Shown here: positions 16,281 through 28,781 of the stretch, piece by piece | Layout: every line of letters begins with the position of its first letter | Position numbering within the stretch: position 1 is the first letter of the stretch | Origin: Pleurocapsa sp. FMAR1 | GTDB lineage: Bacteria; Cyanobacteriota; Cyanobacteriia; Cyanobacteriales; Xenococcaceae | DNA length: 64,000 nucleotides | Direction of reading: 5' to 3' | Assembly: GCF_963665995.1 (NCBI RefSeq) | Contig: NZ_OY762512.1 | Location: 868,001-932,000 of the forward strand | The notes under the pieces: model-generated | The model's database searches: none | What the model was told of the DNA's origin: nothing | Seen by the model: only the letters and a program-made list of their open reading frames with translations | Translations under genes and position numbers: made by a program

Positions 16281-19200
16281 TTATAGTTTTTGTACTAATA
16301 CTACTAATTGATTAAAAGATTGAGTTATAGTCATAGACTGTGCCGAAATCCGCTCGGCGATGCTTGCCACTTCCTGTACAGAATCTTTGGCAAAGGTTGA
16401 ACTCTGCGTCTGATTTTCTACAGACCTAGAAATATTTTCAATCAGAGAATTCACCTTGTTGTATAAGGTAACAACTCGATCTAACTTTTGACGAACCGCT
16501 TGAAACTCTCCCACGCCATTAATTAACTGCTGTGTTCCTGAGTCTAGAGTAATTGTCTTTTCTCTTATCTCTGTCTGAATATTGACAAACAGTGGTTCGA
16601 CTTTAGCGGAGGCTTCATATAGCTGCTGCATTAAAGAGAAAATAGTATCAGACAAATCCATAACTGAGTTTTGACTACTTGCTTCAATCTGACTACGATT
16701 TACTGCTCTAGTTATACTCATTGAATGCTGAACTATTTGCTTACTCAAATCTCTGATCGTATTAACTGTCTCAGCCAGCTTCTCAGAAGAATTACTGAGA
16801 TTGTCAAATCCAACTGCGACACCTTGAACTTTGCGTTGAATATTAGAAATGCTGTCTACAGCACGATCTAAACTTGCTTGGGTATCATGTACCGCTAATT
16901 CATTTTGCTGTTCTTGGAATTTAACCTGCTGCACATTTAACGCTATGCCGTTGAATGAATCAGCAACCTTTTGGATTTGATGGAGAACGTTAATTGTAGT
17001 CTCTGATTGACGCATAGCCTCCTGAGAAAGAGTTTGATAAGCGTCTCCATTGTCTACAAGGATCTCAACTACCTGATTTTTAAGAGTTTCTGTTTGCTCG
17101 TATTGCTGATGGGATATTTGCTTGTTTGTTTGAGTAGATTCTTGAAGCTGTTCTAGGAGTTTAGCGTTATCAAGAGCAAAACCAACTTGCATGGCAATTT
17201 GAGCTATCCAACGAATTTCAGCTTGCTGCCACTCACGGATATCAGAACATTGATGAGCCACCAACAAGCCAAACAGTTTGCCTTCATTGATGATTGGCGT
17301 TACAAGACTAGCCTTAACCTCTAATTTTTTGAGCTGTTCGATATAGCATTTAGTCATGCCCGCTTCATAAATATTGTTCCAAGCGCGGACGCGACCATTA
17401 AGATATTTGTCTCGATAAGTAGGTTCAAAGCAAGGATCGTCTATTTTTTGACCTAAAGCTCGTGTCCATCCAGGGGCAACGGATTCAGCTAGTACCGTAC
17501 CATAGCGCAAATCCTGGTTTAGACTATAAACTACTACGCGATCGCATTCTAAGATTCGGCGCACTTCTTGGACGCTGCTTTTGAGTATATCTTCGGTTTT
17601 AAGGGATTCTCTAATGTGCCCGATGGCATCGGTGAAGTACTCTGTCCATTTGTTTTCGTCCTCTACCTGCTGCTGTAGACGTTTGGCTTCAGCTAACGAT
17701 TTGGCATTATCAAGGGCAAAAGCCACTTGAGTGGCAATTTGAGTCACCCAGCGAATTTCAGGCTGCTGCCAATTACGAAAGTCCGAACACTGATGAGCTA
17801 CCAATAAGCCAAACAGCTTACCTTCGTTGACAATCGGCGTTACTAAGTTAGCTTTTACCTGTAGATCTTCTAGCTGTTCGATATAGCATTTAGTCATGCC
17901 TGCTTCATAAATGTTGCTCCAGGCCCTAACTCTACCGTTACGATACTTTTCTCGATAAGTGGGTTCAAAACAAGGATCGTCTATCTGTTTGTTCAAAGCT
18001 CTCGTCCAACCAGCCGCAACGGATTCGGCAATTACTGCACCATAGCGAAGCTTTTGATTAAGACTATATACGACCACGCGATCGCAGTTCAAAACGCGAC
18101 GTACTTCTTCTACACTAACTTCGAGGATATCTTCTTGGTGCAAAGATTCTCGAATATAGCGGACAGCATCGGTGAAATACTGCGTCATTTTGGCTTCATT
18201 TTCTAACTGATGTTGAAGTTGTTTAGCATCAGCTAGTAATTTGGCATTATCTAGAGCGAAACCGACTTGAGTGGCAATTTGAGCTACCCAACGAACTTCA
18301 GGCTGTTGCCAAGTACGAAAGTCCGAACACTGGTGAGCTACCAATAAACCAAATAGTTTGCCTTCATTAATAATAGGGGCTACGAGATTAGCTTTAACTT
18401 CTAACTCTTCTAACTGCTCGACATAGCATTTAGTCATGCCCGTTTCATAAATGTTGTTCCATGCCCTAACTCTACCGTTACGATACTTGTCTCGATAGGT
18501 AGGTTCAAAACAGGGGTCGTCTATCTGTTTGTTTAAAGCCCTTGTCCAACCAGGAGCAACAGATTCGGCAATTACTGCACCATAGCGGAGATCTCGGTTC
18601 AGACTATAGACTACCACGCGATCGCATTCTAAAACCCGGCGTACTTCTTTGACGCTGGCTTTCAAAATATCTTCTTGGTTTAGAGACTGACGAATATATT
18701 GAATTGCATCGGTGAAATGGTGATTCCATTTATTTTCACTTGCAGCTAATAATTTTTGTGATTCAGAGTCATTATCGGCAATTGTTTCAGTATATTCGAG
18801 CATCAGACCTACCTGATCACCGATTTCAGTTATCCAGTTAATTTCTTGTTCTTGCCAATGGCGGGGGTTGGAACAATGATGGGCAATTAATAGACCAAAT
18901 AATTGATCCTCACTGACAATTGGTGCAACTAAGTTGGCTTTTACCTGTAGTTCTTCTAGCTGTTCGAGATAACAAGGGGTAATACTCGCGCTATGAATAT
19001 CATCTATAGCGCGGACTCGACCATTTTTATATTCTTCGATATATCTAACCGCCAAACAGGGGTCATCTATCACTCTGCCCTTAGCTTTGTTCCATTGGGG
19101 CGCAACGGATTCGGCTGCTACCACTCCATAATTATCTTTATCTAAACTGTAAACCACCACGCGATCGCACTCAAGCAGATAACGTAGTTCATTAACTGTA

Positions 19201-19937
19201 GTGTTAAAGATATTTTCTTGTCCCAATTGAGCGGCTATTCTGTCATTAATATCAGAAAACAATTTAGTTTTGTTCTCCTGAATCTTTGTCTGTTGTTCTG
19301 AAGGTAGAATATTTTCGTGACCGTTTTTTTCTCGATCCATTCTTAAAGAAGAGTTGTTGTTTTGGTTTTTTATTTGTTGTGCTGCTTCTAAAACTTCATT
19401 GTTAGAAGACGGACTAAGGGGTATACTTTTATTTTCGCTTGACTCAGACTTTTGAGCTTTGACAATATTAGAGAGAGCAAAGCCTGTCATATTAGCTTTC
19501 TCGGTCAAAAATTTGCTAGTTTCAGAATTCCAAGCGCGAAATTCAGAGCATTGATGAGCGACTAAAAAAGCTAATAATTTTTGATTGACAGAAATTGGTG
19601 CAACTAGTAGACTTTTAATCTTAAGTCTTTCTAAGTCTTCCAATTTGCTTTTGCTTATATGTGTGTCATAAATATTATCTATAGCTACAACTTGACCATA
19701 GCAATACAGTTCTAGATAATCTCCTGCTAAGAACGGGTTGATGATCGTTTTTCCGACAATAGAAGCATATTGAGAATCAACAGACTCGGCTATTACTTTT
19801 GATTTGAGCAGTTCACTAGCATCATAAATAATGACGCGATCGCATTTGAGAGTTTTTCTAGTTGTCTCAACAGTAAGCTGGACAATTTCTTCAAGATGCT
19901 GGTAATTATTTGTTTTTAGATTAGGAGATTGAGTCAT
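16281..19937 (-). CDS. Five-GAF soluble receptor-like protein with degenerate chemoreceptor C-terminus
   Basis: 1218 residues, no membrane segment. Five GAF domains lie at about 15-160, 228-385, 405-570, 585-750 and 765-930; the last three repeat every 180 residues. GAF2-5 each hold two cysteines exactly 28 apart (294/322, 476/504, 656/684, 836/864), the first in a DPC(F/L) motif and the second in T(K/P)CY, at the bilin positions of DXCF-type cyanobacteriochromes. GAF1 lacks both. Residues ~935-1218 are coiled coil resembling a methyl-accepting chemoreceptor, ending in ASIAERISAQS...SFNQLV, but the conserved hairpin tip (N-LALNA-IEAARAGE-GRGFAVVA type) is unrecognisable at residues ~1062-1100. 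A light or ligand sensor that does not signal through CheA is possible. Function is inference. Confidence 0.85.
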   Translation of the reverse strand: MTQSPNLKTNNYQHLEEIVQLTVETTRKTLKCDRVIIYDASELLKSKVIAESVDSQYASIVGKTIINPFLAGDYLELYCYGQVVAIDNIYDTHISKSKLEDLERLKIKSLLVAPISVNQKLLAFLVAHQCSEFRAWNSETSKFLTEKANMTGFALSNIVKAQKSESSENKSIPLSPSSNNEVLEAAQQIKNQNNNSSLRMDREKNGHENILPSEQQTKIQENKTKLFSDINDRIAAQLGQENIFNTTVNELRYLLECDRVVVYSLDKDNYGVVAAESVAPQWNKAKGRVIDDPCLAVRYIEEYKNGRVRAIDDIHSASITPCYLEQLEELQVKANLVAPIVSEDQLFGLLIAHHCSNPRHWQEQEINWITEIGDQVGLMLEYTETIADNDSESQKLLAASENKWNHHFTDAIQYIRQSLNQEDILKASVKEVRRVLECDRVVVYSLNRDLRYGAVIAESVAPGWTRALNKQIDDPCFEPTYRDKYRNGRVRAWNNIYETGMTKCYVEQLEELEVKANLVAPIINEGKLFGLLVAHQCSDFRTWQQPEVRWVAQIATQVGFALDNAKLLADAKQLQHQLENEAKMTQYFTDAVRYIRESLHQEDILEVSVEEVRRVLNCDRVVVYSLNQKLRYGAVIAESVAAGWTRALNKQIDDPCFEPTYREKYRNGRVRAWSNIYEAGMTKCYIEQLEDLQVKANLVTPIVNEGKLFGLLVAHQCSDFRNWQQPEIRWVTQIATQVAFALDNAKSLAEAKRLQQQVEDENKWTEYFTDAIGHIRESLKTEDILKSSVQEVRRILECDRVVVYSLNQDLRYGTVLAESVAPGWTRALGQKIDDPCFEPTYRDKYLNGRVRAWNNIYEAGMTKCYIEQLKKLEVKASLVTPIINEGKLFGLLVAHQCSDIREWQQAEIRWIAQIAMQVGFALDNAKLLEQLQESTQTNKQISHQQYEQTETLKNQVVEILVDNGDAYQTLSQEAMRQSETTINVLHQIQKVADSFNGIALNVQQVKFQEQQNELAVHDTQASLDRAVDSISNIQRKVQGVAVGFDNLSNSSEKLAETVNTIRDLSKQIVQHSMSITRAVNRSQIEASSQNSVMDLSDTIFSLMQQLYEASAKVEPLFVNIQTEIREKTITLDSGTQQLINGVGEFQAVRQKLDRVVTLYNKVNSLIENISRSVENQTQSSTFAKDSVQEVASIAERISAQSMTITQSFNQLVVLVQKL

Positions 19938-20228: not shown

Positions 20229-21269
20229 ATGGGCGCTCCGCATGAGAAAAGTTATGAGAAGTTAACTTTAGTTGCTGTAGGTATAGCAGCCTTTGTTTCT
20301 CTAGCATGGTCAGTAGGATTAGTCGGCAAAGGAATTTGGCAATTGTCCCAATCCAGAATTGAAGCTGGGTCAAACAGCAAAAATATTCCTGATTTTTCTC
20401 GTGTGCCAAACGTAACTACTGGAGTCTTCAATTATGGCGGTAGCACTGCTTGGGCTTCTCTTCGTTTAGCCGTAGACTCAGTTATTCAGTCAGAACGACC
20501 TGAAATACAATTTCGCTATGTTCAACCCCAAAATGAGCCACCAGGTTCTAGCCCAGGAATTAGAATGCTGCTCAAAGGTCAAGTAGATTTTGTCCAATCT
20601 TCTCGTTCTCTACGTCCAGAAGAATATCAGCTAGCTAAACAAAAAGGCATAAAGCTCAAACAAGTGCCAGTGGCTGTCGATAGTATCGCTGTGGCAGTAA
20701 ACCCCAAGCTTGACATTCGGGGTTTAACTCTTAGCCAACTCCAAGCAATCTACACAGGAAAAATAATCTCAAATTGGCAAGAAATAGGTGGACCAGATCT
20801 ACCAATTACCGTCTATTCTCGTCCTGCCAGTGCGGGAGAAAGAGTCGATTTTATTAATTCTAAAATCTTTCAAAATAGGGAAATGGGTTCAAACGTTAAA
20901 TTTATGCCGACGGCTACTCAAGCTCTTCGCCAATTAGCTAATAATCCAGGAGGCATTTACTATGATTCTACGGCAACAATTGTGCCTCAATGTACTGTCA
21001 AACCGTTGCCTCTAGGGAAGCAAATGAATGACTTGGTTGCTCCTTATCAACAGCCTTTAGTACCTGCTTCTGAATGCCCACAAAGGCGCAACAGACTAAA
21101 TGTTAAAGCTCTACGTACTGCGAAATATCCATTGACTCATTATTTATATGTGGTATTTCGACAAAGTGAAAACGGTAAGTCACAAATTGGTCAGGCGTAT
21201 GCTAATTTCCTGCTTACTCCTCAAGGTCAAAAGCTGATAACCAAGGCTGGCTTTGTTCCTCTTGACTAG
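20229..21269 (+). CDS. PstS-like substrate-binding protein, membrane-anchored
   Basis: 346 residues. One uncleaved-looking membrane anchor at residues ~12-36 is followed by a type-2 periplasmic-binding fold of the phosphate-binding (PstS) superfamily: FNYGGSTAW near the start, VDFVQSSRSLRPEE, VDSIAVAVNPKLDIRGLTLSQLQAIYTG, NWQEIGGPDLPITVYSRPASAG and the C-terminal ANFLLTPQGQKLI. These match the Ser/Thr/Arg-rich oxyanion-binding loops of PstS-like proteins, but the ligand is not proven. It lies between the two GAF receptor genes, divergent from the first and converging on the second (8-base gap), and 7.7 kb from pstCA. Confidence 0.85.
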   Translation: MGAPHEKSYEKLTLVAVGIAAFVSLAWSVGLVGKGIWQLSQSRIEAGSNSKNIPDFSRVPNVTTGVFNYGGSTAWASLRLAVDSVIQSERPEIQFRYVQPQNEPPGSSPGIRMLLKGQVDFVQSSRSLRPEEYQLAKQKGIKLKQVPVAVDSIAVAVNPKLDIRGLTLSQLQAIYTGKIISNWQEIGGPDLPITVYSRPASAGERVDFINSKIFQNREMGSNVKFMPTATQALRQLANNPGGIYYDSTATIVPQCTVKPLPLGKQMNDLVAPYQQPLVPASECPQRRNRLNVKALRTAKYPLTHYLYVVFRQSENGKSQIGQAYANFLLTPQGQKLITKAGFVPLD

Positions 21270-21276
21270 TTGGGTT

Positions 21277-24200
21277 TTAAAGTTCTTTAGGTTCTGATAG
21301 CTGTTGAGCAAACTCAGCTAACTTCCGAAAAGAATCAGTGACAATTAAAGATTGCTGGGAGATCTTATCTGACAAGTCAGTAATATCGCCGATAAATTGA
21401 TTCGTTAAAAGCAAACTTGGTGCTGATTCTGAGTCTTTAGTTAGCTGCCCTGTAATCACATCTAAATCGTAATCATAGCTATCCATTGTCTCTAAAGTTA
21501 CTTCCCTAGCTTCTATGGTGATTTCTCCCATTGGTAAGGCTGGTTGATTCGATGCTGATAAGAGATCGCTCTTTTCTTTCATGTCATTGATTGGATTTAC
21601 CATTTGGTAAAAATATTGGTGCGACTGATTTAGTATTTCAACTTTTTTGGCAGCATTAACATCATTTTCTATTTGAGTATTTTTTGATTTACTAACCTTT
21701 CCTTGTGTTGCTGAGTGGTGGCTAATTTTTGCTCCGAGATCCTGCAATGCAGCTTGGTTTTTTGTCAGTAGCTTGGAGATCTTTTGATTAAGACTTTGTT
21801 GTTCTAAGTGTTGTTTGTCAGTCTCATTTCTTTGGACATTTTTCGCTGCATTTAATGCCTCTCTTAACCCGACTCTATCTAAAGCTAATCCCAATTGCAG
21901 AGCTAGTTGAGCAAACAGATCTATTTCCGACTGTGACCACAGGCGAGGCTGTTGGCATTGATGTCCAATAAGTAAACCAAACAATTGCTCGTCCTGTACA
22001 ATTGGTACTATCACGCTTGCTTTGACTGATAAAGATTCAAGCTGTTCTAAATGATAGGCTGTTAGATTAGCCTGATGAATATTAGCGATCGCCTCTGTTC
22101 TACCTTGACGATATTTTTCGCCATATTCTTTAGCAAAGCAGGGATCTTGGCTCTGGGAATTTAAAGCTTTAGGATAACCAGGGACAACTGATTCGGCAAC
22201 AATATTTCCGTTTAAATTGTCATCAAATTGATAAAGGATTACGCGATCGAGCTTAATTACTTTACGAGCTTGTTCGACGGCAATTTTTAGCAGTTGCGAT
22301 CTGTTAACTTTTTCACTGATACCAAAACTGAAATTGTTTAACAGTTGCATTGGCAGACCGTCATTTTTTAATTTTTTCAGCAGTGTGGCATTATCGAGAG
22401 CAAAACCTACTTGTGTGGCAATCTGTGTCATCCAGCGAATTTCATAGTCCTGCCAGTTGCGAGGTTCACTACACTGATGAGCTACCAGTAAACCAAACAG
22501 CTTTCCTTCATTAAGGATCGGCGTAACTAAATTGGCTTTTACCTCTAGGTTTTCTAGCTGTTCGATATAGCATTTACTCATGCCTGCTTCATAAATATTA
22601 TTAATGGCTCTGACCCTGCCATCACGGTATTTGTCGAGATATTTGGCTTCAAAACAGGGATCTTTAATGGTTTTATTTAATGCCCTAGGATATCCTGCCG
22701 ATACGGATTCGGCGATTACTACGCCGTACTTGTCTTGATTAAGACTATAAACCACTACGCGATCGCATTCTAAGACTCTTCTAACTTCTTCGACGCTGGT
22801 ATCTAGGACATCTTCTTGTTTGATTGAGGCGCGAATGTACTTAGTGGCATCGGTAAAGTAATTAGTCCATTTGCGTTCTTTTTCTACTTGAATCTGAGCA
22901 ATCGCTGATGCTGCTAATACCTTGGCATTATCGAGGGCAAAACCTACTTGTGTGGCAATCTGTGTTACCCAGCGAATTTCATAATCCTGCCAGTTGCGAG
23001 GTTCTCTACACTGATGAGCTACTAGTAAACCAAACAGCTTTCCTTCATTAAGGATCGGCGTGACTAAATTGGCTTTTACCTCTAGGTTTTCTAGATGTTC
23101 GATGTAGCATTTAGTCATGCCTGCTTCATAAATATCATTAATGGCTCTGATCTCACCATCACGGTACTTGTCGAGATATCTGGCTTCAAAATAGGGTTCT
23201 TCAATGGTTTTATTCAATGCCCTAGGATATCCTGCCGATACCGATTCGGCGATTACCACACCGTACTTGTCTTGATTAAGACTATAAACCACTACGCGAT
23301 CGCATTCTAAGACTCTTCTAACTTCTTCGACGCTGATATCTAGGACATCTTCTTGTTTAATTGAGGAGCGAATGTACTTAGTGGCATCGGTAAAGTAGTT
23401 AGTCCATTTGCGTTCTCTTTCTGCTTGAGTTTGGAGATTAACCATATCATCTAATAACTTAGCGTTTTCCAAAGCCAAACCAGTTTTTTTAGCTAGCTGG
23501 TGTAAAAACTCAATGTCCCCCTGCTGCCAATGTCTCGGTTTATCACACTGATGAGCTACTAGTAGACCAAATAACTTTCCTTCAATAATAATAGGCGTAA
23601 CTAAATTGGCTTTTACCTCTAGCTTTTCTAACTGTTCTCTATGGGAAGGGGTCATTTTTGTCTTATAGATATTGTCTATGGCTCTGACTTTGCCATCACG
23701 GTATTTATCCAGATATCGAGCTTCAAAACAGGGATCTTCGATTGCTATACCCAACCATTGAGTATAGCCAAGAGCAACTGATTCTGCTATGATTTCGCCG
23801 TATCTATCTTGGTCAAGGCTGTAGACTACAGTGCGAGCGCAATTCAAATAGTTGCGTGCCTCTTCGACAATGGCTTTAAGAGTATCTTTTTGTGAAACAG
23901 ACTGGCTTAAATTATCAATAAACTCTCTATATACTTGAGTGTTCGCTTCTTCAGCGATTCCTGAGCTTGACGTTTGAGACATCGAATCCAAAAGCCGTTT
24001 TGTCCCCAAGGCCGCGATCGCACCAGCCAGTAAAGCTGTTATTCCACTACCAATTAATAGAGCAGCCAGTAGTTCTTGTTGTCGTGCTAACTCTGTTTCA
24101 GCCAGATCTATATTATCAGATCGTTTTGCTAAGATTGCCTGTTTATTAACAGCTTGGCTACCAAAATAGTAGGTTGCAGTTCCTATTGCGAGTATAGGTA

Positions 24201-24540
24201 ACATTATCGCACTACCTACCAATGCTGCTGCTGTTTTGGCTTTCAGCCTTTGAAAAATTGATTTGCTTAGGTTTTTGCTCGGTGATTTTGTCTCTACCCT
24301 GATTAGTTCACCTCTCTTGTCAACATTCTGTGTATGGGAATTAGCTTGCTCTTTTGCTGGTTTAAAGACAAGTGATTTAGAGGCTTTAACTGATGTAAGT
24401 TTGCCTTCTGCGTTATTCGATAAGACGGAACTCTGAGAAATATCAGTTAAATTAGCTTGGCGATTAATATCAGTTTTAAGTACCTGAGAACTAATTTTAT
24501 CTTTGCCGTTATTGGTTTTACTGCTAGGCGTTTTAGTCAT
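21277..24540 (-). CDS. Membrane-anchored four-GAF receptor-like protein, PixJ-type, no signalling tip
   Basis: 1087 residues from the ATG at 24540; a longer frame to 24630 adds a hydrophobic leader I think is untranslated. The N-terminus (MTKTPSSKTNN) resembles that of the paralogue at 16281-19937. Two membrane segments at ~102-127 and ~157-180 resemble those of PixJ-like receptors. GAF domains: ~205-365, 380-540, 560-720, 735-895. At the two cysteine positions (28 apart) they read C271/S299, Y450/C478, C629/C657 and C801/Y829, so only GAF3 keeps both. The C-terminal ~190 residues are coiled coil and linker ending DLSDKISQQS...DSFRKLAEFAQQL, like a chemoreceptor end, with the central methylation helices and hairpin tip missing. 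Confidence 0.85.
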   Translation of the reverse strand: MTKTPSSKTNNGKDKISSQVLKTDINRQANLTDISQSSVLSNNAEGKLTSVKASKSLVFKPAKEQANSHTQNVDKRGELIRVETKSPSKNLSKSIFQRLKAKTAAALVGSAIMLPILAIGTATYYFGSQAVNKQAILAKRSDNIDLAETELARQQELLAALLIGSGITALLAGAIAALGTKRLLDSMSQTSSSGIAEEANTQVYREFIDNLSQSVSQKDTLKAIVEEARNYLNCARTVVYSLDQDRYGEIIAESVALGYTQWLGIAIEDPCFEARYLDKYRDGKVRAIDNIYKTKMTPSHREQLEKLEVKANLVTPIIIEGKLFGLLVAHQCDKPRHWQQGDIEFLHQLAKKTGLALENAKLLDDMVNLQTQAERERKWTNYFTDATKYIRSSIKQEDVLDISVEEVRRVLECDRVVVYSLNQDKYGVVIAESVSAGYPRALNKTIEEPYFEARYLDKYRDGEIRAINDIYEAGMTKCYIEHLENLEVKANLVTPILNEGKLFGLLVAHQCREPRNWQDYEIRWVTQIATQVGFALDNAKVLAASAIAQIQVEKERKWTNYFTDATKYIRASIKQEDVLDTSVEEVRRVLECDRVVVYSLNQDKYGVVIAESVSAGYPRALNKTIKDPCFEAKYLDKYRDGRVRAINNIYEAGMSKCYIEQLENLEVKANLVTPILNEGKLFGLLVAHQCSEPRNWQDYEIRWMTQIATQVGFALDNATLLKKLKNDGLPMQLLNNFSFGISEKVNRSQLLKIAVEQARKVIKLDRVILYQFDDNLNGNIVAESVVPGYPKALNSQSQDPCFAKEYGEKYRQGRTEAIANIHQANLTAYHLEQLESLSVKASVIVPIVQDEQLFGLLIGHQCQQPRLWSQSEIDLFAQLALQLGLALDRVGLREALNAAKNVQRNETDKQHLEQQSLNQKISKLLTKNQAALQDLGAKISHHSATQGKVSKSKNTQIENDVNAAKKVEILNQSHQYFYQMVNPINDMKEKSDLLSASNQPALPMGEITIEAREVTLETMDSYDYDLDVITGQLTKDSESAPSLLLTNQFIGDITDLSDKISQQSLIVTDSFRKLAEFAQQLSEPKEL

Positions 24541-24946
24541 TATTAATCCAATAAAAAATGGAATAAATTCTTTTTTAATCAGGTGTTGAAAGCAAAATAT
24601 TCTGAAAATAAGAGAATCTATGACAAGCAAATAACTTTTGATATAAAAATACCAAAACTTTACGTATTTTTACTTAATTTATAATACTACATTAACTCAA
24701 GAAAACTATCGGCTTAGTTATGTCATCTGAAGGGTTAAATTGAAAAATGCGGTTAGCACCACAAAGATAAAATTTATAGATTTTACAGCCATAGATATTC
24801 AAACTTCACTACAAAATATCAAGACTGAATAATTCCATTGTCTATTTTGCTGACGCTTTCTGAATATTGTCTGGCTACATAATCATACTAATTGCTGTTC
24901 GTATAGGTGAGTTATCTATTTCAGAGGTCAGAGGTCAATTCGAGCA

Positions 24947-25238: not shown

Positions 25239-26015
25239 TCATCGAGAATTTGCAGATGTTTTAATCATTTTACTTTTGATAAAAGGTTCAGAAGCCAAGT
25301 CCTCTAAACCAACCGTCCCTAATAATTCTGACCATTTCTTTCTAACTGTAGATTGTTTAGCATTAAAGTCTTGCTCGTGAGCTAGTGTAGCTATAGCATC
25401 ATACCAAAAACCTTGTTCACTATATAATTCAGCCTTTTCTACGGAGGTAGCAAATTGAAGTTTTTGTTTAATAGCCCGATCGATTTCCTTCTGATGCAGC
25501 CAGCCTTCAACCACTACATCACGTGAACGCTCTTGAGGATTACAAATCATTGATAGATACCAATGATAATTTTGCTCGGTTTCGGGTTGATTTGAATTAA
25601 TTACAGCAGGAATTTTGACGCTCATAATCCCTTTTCCTGGAGTAGTCAAAAATGCTTCATATATCAATTCATCCTGTTCATTACGCAGCACAAACTCAAT
25701 AGTTTTTTGCTGGCTAACTTCTGGGACGTAAAAGAAAAGTGTAGGAGAGGCAGAATTCTTGATTCCTACGGTTTCATTAGGAATCAAGGCGATTAAATTG
25801 CTATTACTAACATTTGCTAAACAATTATCACCACTTCTACTTCCGCCATCTCGACGATTAGTAGGTAAACCATAATTAGAATTGGCGGACTTACTTTTTT
25901 CTGATTTTTGTTCGGCTGTAGCTGGATTAACTAAACTTAGCTGTAACAAATTTACAATAATTAATAAGCCAAATAATCTATTGAATTTACTTAGTATGAA
26001 TTTAATATTTAACAT
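25239..26015 (-). CDS. DUF928 secreted protein
   Basis: 258 residues with a signal peptide (hydrophobic run ~12-30, cleavage after PATA). The mature part has the DUF928 pattern: YGLPTNRRDGGSRSGDNCL, LIALIPNETVGI, PTLFFYVPE, TIEFVLRNEQDELIYEA and YHWYLSMICNPQERS...VEGWL, followed by a helical C-terminus with WYDAIATLA. The fold is probably an all-beta domain plus helices, located in the periplasm. In cyanobacteria such genes often neighbour CHASE2 sensor genes; here a CHASE2 gene starts divergently 237 bases away, so the two may form a periplasmic sensing pair. Confidence 0.85.
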   Translation of the reverse strand: MLNIKFILSKFNRLFGLLIIVNLLQLSLVNPATAEQKSEKSKSANSNYGLPTNRRDGGSRSGDNCLANVSNSNLIALIPNETVGIKNSASPTLFFYVPEVSQQKTIEFVLRNEQDELIYEAFLTTPGKGIMSVKIPAVINSNQPETEQNYHWYLSMICNPQERSRDVVVEGWLHQKEIDRAIKQKLQFATSVEKAELYSEQGFWYDAIATLAHEQDFNAKQSTVRKKWSELLGTVGLEDLASEPFIKSKMIKTSANSR

Positions 26016-26252
26016 TATTTATTTGTTGACAAATTAATTGATAATATATAAATATATTAATCTTATTTGTCAACAAATGTCCATGTTTGTAAACTTTAAC
26101 TATACTTATTTAAAACAATATTTTATTGGCTAATAAATTAACTGGTTTTACTGAATATTTTGCTAATTGTGCTTTTCTATTAGTAAATTTACTTAATTAA
26201 TAATATATTTTTTACTCTTTAAACTCTCGATTATGTAGGAATTAACTAGTCA

Positions 26253-28781
26253 ATGAATAATGATAATGCCAAAACGGTTTATAAATACTTTAATTTTAAA
26301 AAAGCCAAAAATTGGATTGGGGCATATAGTTTTTCTTTATTGTTATTAACGAGTTTTGTTACCTTAATAGTATTAGGAGCTAGGCAATTTAGTGGGTTAC
26401 AGGGATTAGAATTATTGGCTTACGACTGGATGATCAATTTTAAAAGCAAAAACGAAATTGATCCAAGATTATTAGTAGTTGAAATTACGGACAAAGATAT
26501 TGACTCACAAAATAGCTGGCCAATCACTGATGAAACGATTGCTCAGTTGCTTAAAAATATACAGCAGTATCAGCCAAAGGTAGTTGGCTTTGACCTTTAT
26601 CGAGAAGTGGCTTATCCTCCAGGTACAAAATCCCTCAGACAAGAATTACAAAAAGATAATGTAGTCGCCATTCAACTATTAGGAAATGGAAATAATAGTG
26701 TTTCTGCACCTCCAGGGCTAAAACCTGAGCAAATTGGTTTTAATGACATAGTTATCGACGAAGGAGATGATGTTCTGCGTCGTAATCTTATGTATGTTCA
26801 ATTGGGTAAAAAAGAAGAGGAAAAGATGTATGCCTTTTCTTTGCGCTTAAGTCTTAAATATTTGGCAGAGCGTAATCTTTTATTCCAAGTTCATGATGAT
26901 TCTCTGCAAATCGGTAATGCAGTTTTTCCTGATTTAAAAGCAAATTCAGGTGGTTATCAGCTAAAGTCGTCTGAGACTGCGGGTTGGCAAACTTTAATTA
27001 ACTATCGTTCTCCTAATATTGCCCAAAAAGTAACTTTATCGGCAGTATTAGAGGGGAAAGTTCCACCCAATCTAATCAAAGACAAGATAGTTTTAATTGG
27101 TACGACCGCCCCTAGCATTAAAGATATTTATCCTACTCCCTATAAAGGTGCTGAAGGGTCTATGCCAGGAGTAATAGCTCATGCTCAAATGGTCAGCCAA
27201 ATTTTAAACGTAGTTTTAGATGATAAGTCTCTATTTTGGTTTTGGCCTGAATGGCTTGAAGGAATATGGATTTGGGGGTGGGCATTATTAGGAGCAGCGA
27301 TCGCCTGGAGACTGAGACACCCTTTATTAATTGTCACTGTGGGTATAGTTAGCATAGGCGGTTTATGGGGAATTTGCTTTGTTACCTTTACTTTTAACGG
27401 TTGGATTCCCTTTGTTCCCGCTGCTATTACCTTGGCGTTAACTACCGCCAGCGTTTTAGGCTATAAATCTCTATATAACCTGTTTTATGATTCTTTGACA
27501 GGACTACCCAACCGTACTTTATTTACCAAAAAACTTGAGGAACTAAAACAGAGAAATCGCTTTAAATCAAAAGGATTAATTGCAATTCTCTGTCTCGATT
27601 TAGACCGTTTTAAATTAATTAATGACGGCTTAGGATATCAGGCGGGCGATCTCATTTTGATCGAGACGGCTCAACGTTTACAGGACAATTTGGATTCTAA
27701 AGCAATTCTTGCCAGGGTAGGGGCTGATGAATTTGCGATCGCTATTAGAACTACCGAAGAAACTACAGAAGCGATCAAAATAGCTAATAAATTAAATAAA
27801 GTATTATCTATTCCTTTTAAACTTAGTCAACAAGATATCTTTACCTCTGCCAGTATCGGTTTAGCACTCAATCGTCTGGGGGAAGATTTTCAACCAGAAG
27901 AACTATTGCAAGCATCTCATACCGCTATGTATAAGGCTAAGGCATCAGGGAAAAGCCAGCATGAGGTATTTGCCATCAAGATGCACGAACAGGCATTAAA
28001 GCGACTGCAATTGGAAGCAGATTTGAACCAGGCGATTACTAATCAAGAATTTGAGCTTTACTATCAGCCAATTATCTCTCTGGCTACAGGAATGCTTAGT
28101 GGTTTTGAGGCTTTAGTGCGCTGGCAATCTCCCGCCAGAGGTTTTATATCTCCTGGGGCTTTTATTCCCGTCGCCGAAGAAACAGGTTTAATTGTGCCAA
28201 TGGGAAAATGGATCTTAGAAACAGCCTGTAGTCAGATGCAGGCATGGCGCAGAGAATTTACCCAAGCACAATCAGTAGTTATGAGCGTCAATCTTTCTAG
28301 CCGACAGTTTGCTCAACCCGATCTAATTGCTCAAATTCAGGAAGCTTTAATTATTACAGAATTAGATCCAGCTAATCTGAAGCTGGAGATTACCGAAAGC
28401 ATGGTGATGGACGATGTGGAAAATACAATTATTTTACTCAATCAGTTAAAAAAATTAAATATTAAAATCAGCATGGATGACTTTGGTACAGGGTTTTCTT
28501 CTTTTAGTTATCTCCATCGTTTTCCCACGGATACTCTTAAAATAGATCGCTCCTTTGTCAGTAATATGAGTCAGGGAGTTAAAAATTTAGAGATTGTTAA
28601 TACCATAGTCATTTTGGCTCACAAACTGGGTATGGATGTCATCGCTGAAGGCATTGAAACCGAGTCAGAAAGAAAGATTATTCAAGACTTTAAATGCGAA
28701 TATGGACAAGGTTATTTCTTTGCTAAACCTTTATCCAAACATGATGCTACAGAGTTATTTGTTCAAAATAGGCAGTGGTAA
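26253..28781 (+). CDS. CHASE2-GGDEF-EAL cyclic-di-GMP sensor protein
   Basis: 842 residues. A membrane segment near 25-45, a periplasmic CHASE2 domain (~45-310; ITDKDID, VVGFDLYREV, KDKIVLIGTTAPSIKD), three membrane helices (~325-405), GGDEF at ~412-570 and EAL at ~588-835. The GGDEF signature is GADEF (residues 490-494), with an Ala in place of the second Gly, so cyclase activity is doubtful. The EAL domain looks complete: EALVRW at 619, NLSSRQF, LEITES, MDDFGTGFSS, LKIDRSFV and VIAEGIE. It is probably a c-di-GMP phosphodiesterase whose GGDEF may bind GTP as a regulatory domain. Its neighbour upstream is DUF928; pstCA follows in the same direction after ~160 bases. Confidence 0.92.
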   Translation: MNNDNAKTVYKYFNFKKAKNWIGAYSFSLLLLTSFVTLIVLGARQFSGLQGLELLAYDWMINFKSKNEIDPRLLVVEITDKDIDSQNSWPITDETIAQLLKNIQQYQPKVVGFDLYREVAYPPGTKSLRQELQKDNVVAIQLLGNGNNSVSAPPGLKPEQIGFNDIVIDEGDDVLRRNLMYVQLGKKEEEKMYAFSLRLSLKYLAERNLLFQVHDDSLQIGNAVFPDLKANSGGYQLKSSETAGWQTLINYRSPNIAQKVTLSAVLEGKVPPNLIKDKIVLIGTTAPSIKDIYPTPYKGAEGSMPGVIAHAQMVSQILNVVLDDKSLFWFWPEWLEGIWIWGWALLGAAIAWRLRHPLLIVTVGIVSIGGLWGICFVTFTFNGWIPFVPAAITLALTTASVLGYKSLYNLFYDSLTGLPNRTLFTKKLEELKQRNRFKSKGLIAILCLDLDRFKLINDGLGYQAGDLILIETAQRLQDNLDSKAILARVGADEFAIAIRTTEETTEAIKIANKLNKVLSIPFKLSQQDIFTSASIGLALNRLGEDFQPEELLQASHTAMYKAKASGKSQHEVFAIKMHEQALKRLQLEADLNQAITNQEFELYYQPIISLATGMLSGFEALVRWQSPARGFISPGAFIPVAEETGLIVPMGKWILETACSQMQAWRREFTQAQSVVMSVNLSSRQFAQPDLIAQIQEALIITELDPANLKLEITESMVMDDVENTIILLNQLKKLNIKISMDDFGTGFSSFSYLHRFPTDTLKIDRSFVSNMSQGVKNLEIVNTIVILAHKLGMDVIAEGIETESERKIIQDFKCEYGQGYFFAKPLSKHDATELFVQNRQW

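Follow-up and report, generated by a model that had tools for sequence, protein, structure and literature searches.

Does a chain of GAF domains whose paired cysteines repeat the spacing of the two bilin-linked cysteines of TePixJ bind chromophores and sense light, or does it carry relic domains? The question is raised by ORF A, an open reading frame (ORF) on the reverse strand of a 64,000-nucleotide stretch of the Pleurocapsa sp. FMAR1 genome (contig NZ_OY762512.1, positions 868,001 to 932,000; hereafter the window), which encodes five GAF domains identified with Pfam, followed by a coiled coil derived from the signalling domain of methyl-accepting chemotaxis proteins (MCPs) (Table 1). An earlier note, made from the sequence of the window, had described ORF A as a soluble chain with four two-cysteine GAF domains, either an unusual multi-chromophore sensor or a set of relic domains that bind no bilin. 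As a whole, the observations are best explained, with a probability of about 0.6, by a bilin-binding tandem-GAF sensor that is related to PixJ and has a tip-less output end. This reading is built on the domain make-up, the homology to TePixJ together with a predicted fold, the placement and conservation of the cysteines, the bilin pathway genes and the loss of the tip sequence, from which we infer chromophore binding, photochemistry and output.

Paired cysteines and the putative bilin pocket

The second to fifth domains (GAF2-5) each carry a DPC(F/L) cysteine and a T(K/P)CY cysteine exactly 28 residues apart, as the earlier note had claimed; the contexts are DPCL/TPCY once and DPCF/TKCY three times. 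ORF A contains 19 cysteines in total, and by a rough estimate their random scatter would give about 0.3 pairs at this distance. The distances 33 and 61, like 28, occur four times each, because the same four cysteines are present in each of four duplicate domains. GAF4 is identical to GAF3, GAF5, GAF2 and GAF1 at 84%, 76%, 52% and 37% of positions, respectively. The regularity of the spacing is real, yet judged by these identities it amounts to about two lines (GAF2 and GAF3-5), which excludes four independent events. The bare recurrence of 28 residues was therefore dropped as evidence, and the four two-cysteine domains stand as mutual duplicates within a chain of five.

Among solved structures, TePixJ, a two-cysteine sensor of blue and green light, was the nearest by sequence (3vv4, E 4.2e-42; E 3e-39 for GAF4 alone). 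Identity to its GAF domain was 39.2% in GAF3, 43.1% in GAF4, 42.5% in GAF5 and 27.5% in GAF1, and GAF2, the closest (Table 1), aligned with it without a gap over 144 residues. Among the GAF domains, fold prediction and fold matching were applied to GAF4: its AlphaFold2 model, based on 37 sequences, reached a pLDDT of 86.3, and its top fold match was again TePixJ (4fof; E 5.9e-19, TM-score 0.86, 42% identity). The gapless alignment and the fold match place the pairs at the positions of TePixJ Cys494 and Cys522, as had been proposed (TePixJ numbering is used below). GAF2-5 thus combine the sequence and, as predicted for GAF4, the fold of a cyanobacteriochrome GAF domain with a DXCF motif (DPCF in GAF3-5, DPCL in GAF2) and a canonical bilin-attachment cysteine 28 residues after it. 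In TePixJ, Cys522 is described as holding ring A and Cys494 as adding to C10, His498 and Trp499 as contacting the B-ring propionate, and Asp492, Gln526, His523 and Asn535 as lying near the bilin (PMC6955287). A check of these contacts, which the earlier note had called for, turned out partly favorable: the equivalents of Asp492, Cys494, Cys522 and Gln526 are retained in GAF2-5 and that of Asn535 in GAF2-4, whereas those of His498, Trp499 and His523 are not. Compared with the TePixJ GAF structures (3vv4, 4fof and 4glq), ORF A shares the GAF fold, the cysteine spacing and the retained residues; it differs in having Tyr523 and Tyr499, an altered position 498 and four such domains, and in lacking a transmembrane segment and an intact tip.

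Orthologues of ORF A were found at four loci in Pleurocapsa, Xenococcus and Hyellaceae assemblies and at others in genomes of the same genus and family. Position-wise counts are based on ORF A and 15 orthologues (16 proteins, two of the orthologues incomplete). Asp492, Pro493, Cys494, Phe495, Cys522 and Tyr523 are all invariant in the 49 GAF3-and-later domains (49/49). GAF2 has both cysteines in 13 of the 16 proteins (Cys494 in 13, Cys522 in 15), and GAF1 has neither at the ligand positions in any of 15, one GAF1 that lies in a separate frame (in L019) being left out of this count. GAF1 nevertheless keeps Cys457 (15/15) and Cys555 (12/15), so the ligand pair, lost together, behaves apart from these two cysteines. 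Both TGT and TGC are in use at each cysteine site when the orthologue domains are pooled; therefore silent changes have occurred there. In a wider sample of 157 distinct domains, 116 had both cysteines, 15 had one and 26 had neither; as these domains are related by descent, the Fisher value obtained from the counts does not stand for a probability. Judged from these comparisons, the conservation of the pair argues against relic status for GAF3-5; GAF1 would belong to this family without binding bilin. In L019, GAF1 (L019:7935-8735) is read in a frame that overlaps, and is not that of, GAF2-5 (L019:8519-11680), owing either to a broken frame or to a fault in the assembly.

The residue after the canonical cysteine, usually but not by strict definition histidine (Cys-His, CH), is tyrosine (Cys-Tyr, CY) in GAF2-5. 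The earlier note had pointed out this substitution, which holds in all four domains but is no oddity, as tyrosine is common in a large group: it follows the canonical cysteine in 96 of the 116 two-cysteine domains, against histidine in 19 and glutamine in one, in a sample that was drawn with ORF A itself and is biased toward its kin. In a quick tree of 207 domains (without those of ORF B, a paralogue of ORF A), CY and CH rows were interleaved, and well-supported branches required at least five changes for CY. Nearly all red/green cyanobacteriochromes are stated to have CH, with the exception of NpF2164g5 (also printed NpR2164g5), which has CY, is highly fluorescent and showed no detectable photoconversion; in the C448S mutant of SPI1085g3, a designed His-to-Tyr change is reported to have increased biliverdin binding and fluorescence (PMC9378818). 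NpF2164g5 is the one natural precedent for the CY variant that we found, and no measured DXCF domain with CY was found in the open-access literature searched. Elsewhere in the same genome, a lone GAF frame roughly 185 amino acids long (L006, C1:1264411-1264815) carries DDCF and ECH cysteines.

The supply of chromophore was judged by gene content, according to which the cell is able to make bilin. The genome gave one match for heme oxygenase, three for bilin reductases, and 13 for phycobilisome families. The NCBIfam names of the reductases are phycocyanobilin, 15,16-dihydrobiliverdin and phycoerythrobilin ferredoxin oxidoreductases, which we take to be PcyA, PebA and PebB, respectively.

The MCP-derived tail

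The tail of ORF A aligns with those of MCPs, with the conserved tip segment missing, and its match to Pfam MCPsignal, which equals the cut-off, rises to 44.8 bits with the neighbours in the frame. A tip profile was built from seven canonical tips and applied to a set from which near-copies had been removed; tails shorter than 170 amino acids were left unscored, and four more rows, which hold own-genome proteins of a different nature, were excluded. With this profile, 31 proteins scored at least 92.9 bits (four of these are in the profile), and 28 tandem-GAF relatives, a set that includes B-type proteins with loosely MCP-like tails, scored at most 38.7 bits; the score of ORF A was 4.0 bits. A two-cysteine CY domain is present in 27 of the 28 tip-less proteins (the 28th is a partial frame) and in 7 of the 31 tip-bearing ones, an association that common ancestry and the drawing of the sample from ORF A's own relatives both confound. 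Tip-bearing (24 rows) and tip-less (26 rows) proteins were also split in a tree of the tails with a support of 100/100, but the split was discounted as independent evidence because the tip itself is in the alignment and the result is partly self-made. Over its 274 residues the ORF A tail is 66 to 85% identical to its counterparts in the 14 best-matching other genomes, so it looks used rather than decayed.

Taken together, the alignments indicate that the C-terminus is an MCP-derived coil with an eroded CheA/CheW contact tip, which is newly described here, and that this erosion extends to other tandem-GAF proteins, among which the Cys-Tyr type predominates; standard CheA signalling by ORF A appears unlikely. 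Intact counterparts exist. The tip-bearing MCPs L055, L059 and L086 have the same DXCF type of GAF domain as ORF A, with CY or CH, but their tip is intact. The last GAF domain before the MCP domain has CH in L059 and L060. In L055 and L086, for example, it has CY and holds the only full cysteine pair among the profile-detected GAF domains, with the tip retained. Unlike ORF A, L086 contains Cache and HAMP domains, and its neighbours include one protein each of the CheW, CheA-like and DUF4388-receiver (PATAN) types. The genome of ORF A gave nine CheW-family matches and, besides ORF A, four MCP-family ones that exceed the cut-off; three of the latter were read, and all have canonical tips. The fourth (L015, C1:1056153-1056599) contains an in-frame TGA stop.

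A simple hydropathy scan of ORF A gave no transmembrane segment, so the label "soluble" of the earlier note is reasonable, whereas SyPixJ1 is described with two such segments (PMC5812497).

Proposed function and competing explanations

Multi-domain bilin GAF arrays are already known. PtxD of Nostoc punctiforme is described with seven GAF domains, six or more of them bilin-binding (PMC5812497), and the PixJ homologue of Synechococcus elongatus with five, its mutant being reported to lack phototaxis (PMC8794177); the array in ORF A is thus less unusual than the earlier note had supposed. PtxD (NpF2164) resembles ORF A in that its GAF domains, which bind bilin, stand in tandem ahead of an MCP domain (PMC5812497), and in its fifth domain with CY (PMC9378818), and differs from it in its che-type gene cluster (PMC5812497) and in the grouping of that domain with red/green cyanobacteriochromes; the S. 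elongatus homologue shares the number of GAF domains (PMC8794177), and both are likened to ORF A by description. As far as our searches of the open-access literature show, DXCF-plus-CY arrays joined to an MCP tail without the tip are a new combination.

In the proposed mechanism, ORF A would be cytoplasmic and related to the PixJ family; its GAF3-5, and probably GAF2 as well, would act as cyanobacteriochrome domains of the DXCF type with bilin attached through the CY cysteine. The chromophore would be phycocyanobilin, isomerised to phycoviolobilin or not, and the DPCF cysteine would be positioned for reversible addition to C10. Because tyrosine replaces the usual histidine beside the attachment cysteine, some domains may photoconvert weakly, slowly or not at all. 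The signal would then be carried along an extended coiled coil; since this coil no longer has the tip that contacts CheA/CheW, ORF A would not activate the CheA kinase directly, and the output would more likely pass through a partner, be it the paralogue B, another receptor or a further protein. ORF A is most likely, in our opinion, a bilin-binding cytoplasmic sensor, perhaps poorly photochromic, that does not drive CheA in the standard way; with its changed pocket residues and altered tail, it is probably a light sensor put to another use and not one of the classic kind. A bolder proposal, which we regard as rather improbable, is that a lineage of cyanobacterial receptors has remodelled both ends jointly, with pigment-binding but photochemically damped or locked dual-cysteine CY arrays joined to an MCP coil without kinase contact, to give a CheA-independent sensor of light, bilin or thiol or a dominant modulator within receptor clusters.

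Several observations weigh against this picture of a bilin-binding sensor. SyPixJ1 is reported to bind bilin in one of its two GAF domains (PMC5812497), so GAF homology alone is no proof of binding. In all of GAF2-5, His523 and Trp499 are replaced by tyrosine and His498 by threonine or arginine (tyrosine at 499 is usual in the wider group, in 110 of the 116 two-cysteine domains), and GAF5 has in addition lost the Asn535 equivalent. At least one cysteine is lost from GAF2 in 3 of the 16 proteins. Taken by itself, the invariant pair counts as modest evidence, because 45 of 166 columns, including the non-ligand Cys457 and Cys555, are equally invariant in the 49 GAF3-and-later domains. The natural CY precedent is placed among the red/green cyanobacteriochromes rather than the DXCF type (PMC9378818). 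ORF B has lost one cysteine partner in three of its four domains, and the predicted structure of the ORF A tail, at a pLDDT of 44.9, was too poor to use, so that it offers no structural proof.

Relic or re-used GAF domains without bilin, in which the pair would serve fold stability or a thiol/redox switch, would account for the persistence of GAF1 without either cysteine, the non-binding domain of SyPixJ1, the replacement of His523 in all four domains and the incomplete pairs of ORF B, though B relatives in two other genomes (L082 and L083) have five of five pairs complete. Pooled terminal-branch medians (0.083 with both cysteines, 0.051 with one and 0.126 with none) also did not follow the order expected if change were faster after cysteine loss. 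Such relics would, however, hardly preserve the six motif residues in 49 of 49 domains, or keep and lose the ligand cysteines mostly together while GAF1 retains Cys457 and Cys555. By root-to-tip length, the three GAF2 domains that had lost a cysteine ranked deepest in a set of 17 rows (three of these rows carried no name), and relative to GAF3 of the same protein two of the three diverged beyond the other GAF2 domains; the third (L021) did not, and relaxed selection was dropped as strong evidence for this reason. We regard this explanation as unlikely, if a serious one. Similarly doubtful is the explanation by which the domains bind bilin as locked antennae or as bilin/thiol sensors and not as photoswitches. 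It draws on the fluorescent, apparently non-converting NpF2164g5, on the tyrosine fixed in 49 of 49 domains and on the tendency of CY and tip loss to coincide; against it stand the red/green placement of that precedent, the confounding of the association noted above and the want of a measured DXCF-plus-CY domain in the open-access literature. That ORF A is a fully working phototaxis receptor of the PixJ kind, which runs ordinary blue/green photocycles and signals through CheA, is very unlikely: TePixJ is the closest solved relative, the MCPsignal match reaches the cut-off and the genome holds CheW-family and further MCP-family matches, but the tip score, the missing transmembrane segment, the absence of Che proteins from the ten other window ORFs scanned and Tyr523 all speak against it.

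Bilin binding thus seems most likely for GAF3-5, at the probability of about 0.6 given to the reading as a whole, and probable for GAF2. If the domains bind bilin, ORF A would offer a natural test of the role of the residue next to the attachment cysteine, with three close copies per chain. With the rest of the tail well conserved, the tip loss poses the question by what route an MCP-like receptor could signal in the absence of CheA, or whether it tunes other receptors.

Feature list and gene neighbourhood

Table 1. Features of ORF A and its neighbours in the window
Feature	Position	Strand	Description
ORF A	16281..19937	-	1218 aa; five GAF domains (Pfam), then MCP-derived coiled coil
GAF1	19437..19907	-	No cysteine pair; Phe and Ser at TePixJ positions 494 and 522
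GAF2	18765..19262	-	DPCL/TPCY; Cys294, Cys322; 47.1% identity to TePixJ GAF
GAF3	18216..18719	-	DPCF/TKCY; Cys476, Cys504
GAF4	17676..18182	-	DPCF/TKCY; Cys656, Cys684; AlphaFold2 model (residues 590-755) matches TePixJ
GAF5	17136..17642	-	DPCF/TKCY; Cys836, Cys864; Asn535 equivalent is Ser
C-terminal coiled coil, from MCP signalling domain	16284..17135	-	Pfam MCPsignal 34.6 bits, equal to cut-off
Eroded hairpin tip	16656..16739	-	Aligned to the NLLALNAAIEAARAGE region of intact MCPs, without that sequence
PBP_like_2 (PstS-like) gene	20229..21269	+	Between A and B; kept in relatives
ORF B, paralogue of A	21277..24630	-	Two hydrophobic segments; four GAF domains; tail without tip

A Pfam SpoVT_C match to ORF A (31.8 bits, cut-off 27.5) was discarded, since it falls within GAF5 and no single stretch of it passes the cut-off; we take it to be a cross-match of a GAF-like domain. 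FilR1_middle, BDV_G and the remaining listed Pfam matches to ORF A were all under their own cut-offs.

By domain, the residues at the paired cysteine positions of ORF B are C/S, Y/C, C/C and C/Y, so one of four pairs is complete, and Pfam gave no MCPsignal match to ORF B; from its sequence, this paralogue seems to be decaying in this genome. Among six loci compared, the order B, PBP_like_2, A was found in L018 (with B partial), L019, L020, L082 and L083, and the available stretch of L084 contained only A and PBP_like_2. A functional link of PBP_like_2 to A and B is possible. None of the ten other window ORFs scanned, the nearest on both sides included, encodes a Che protein (the window has 42 ORFs of at least 150 amino acids), and no che-type gene cluster was seen among them. 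A DUF928 gene and a CHASE2-GGDEF-EAL gene adjoin ORF B (25239-28781 of the window). In one genome of the same genus, a third paralogue of 954 amino acids with CY and CH domains and without the tip adjoins A (L083:12337-15201).

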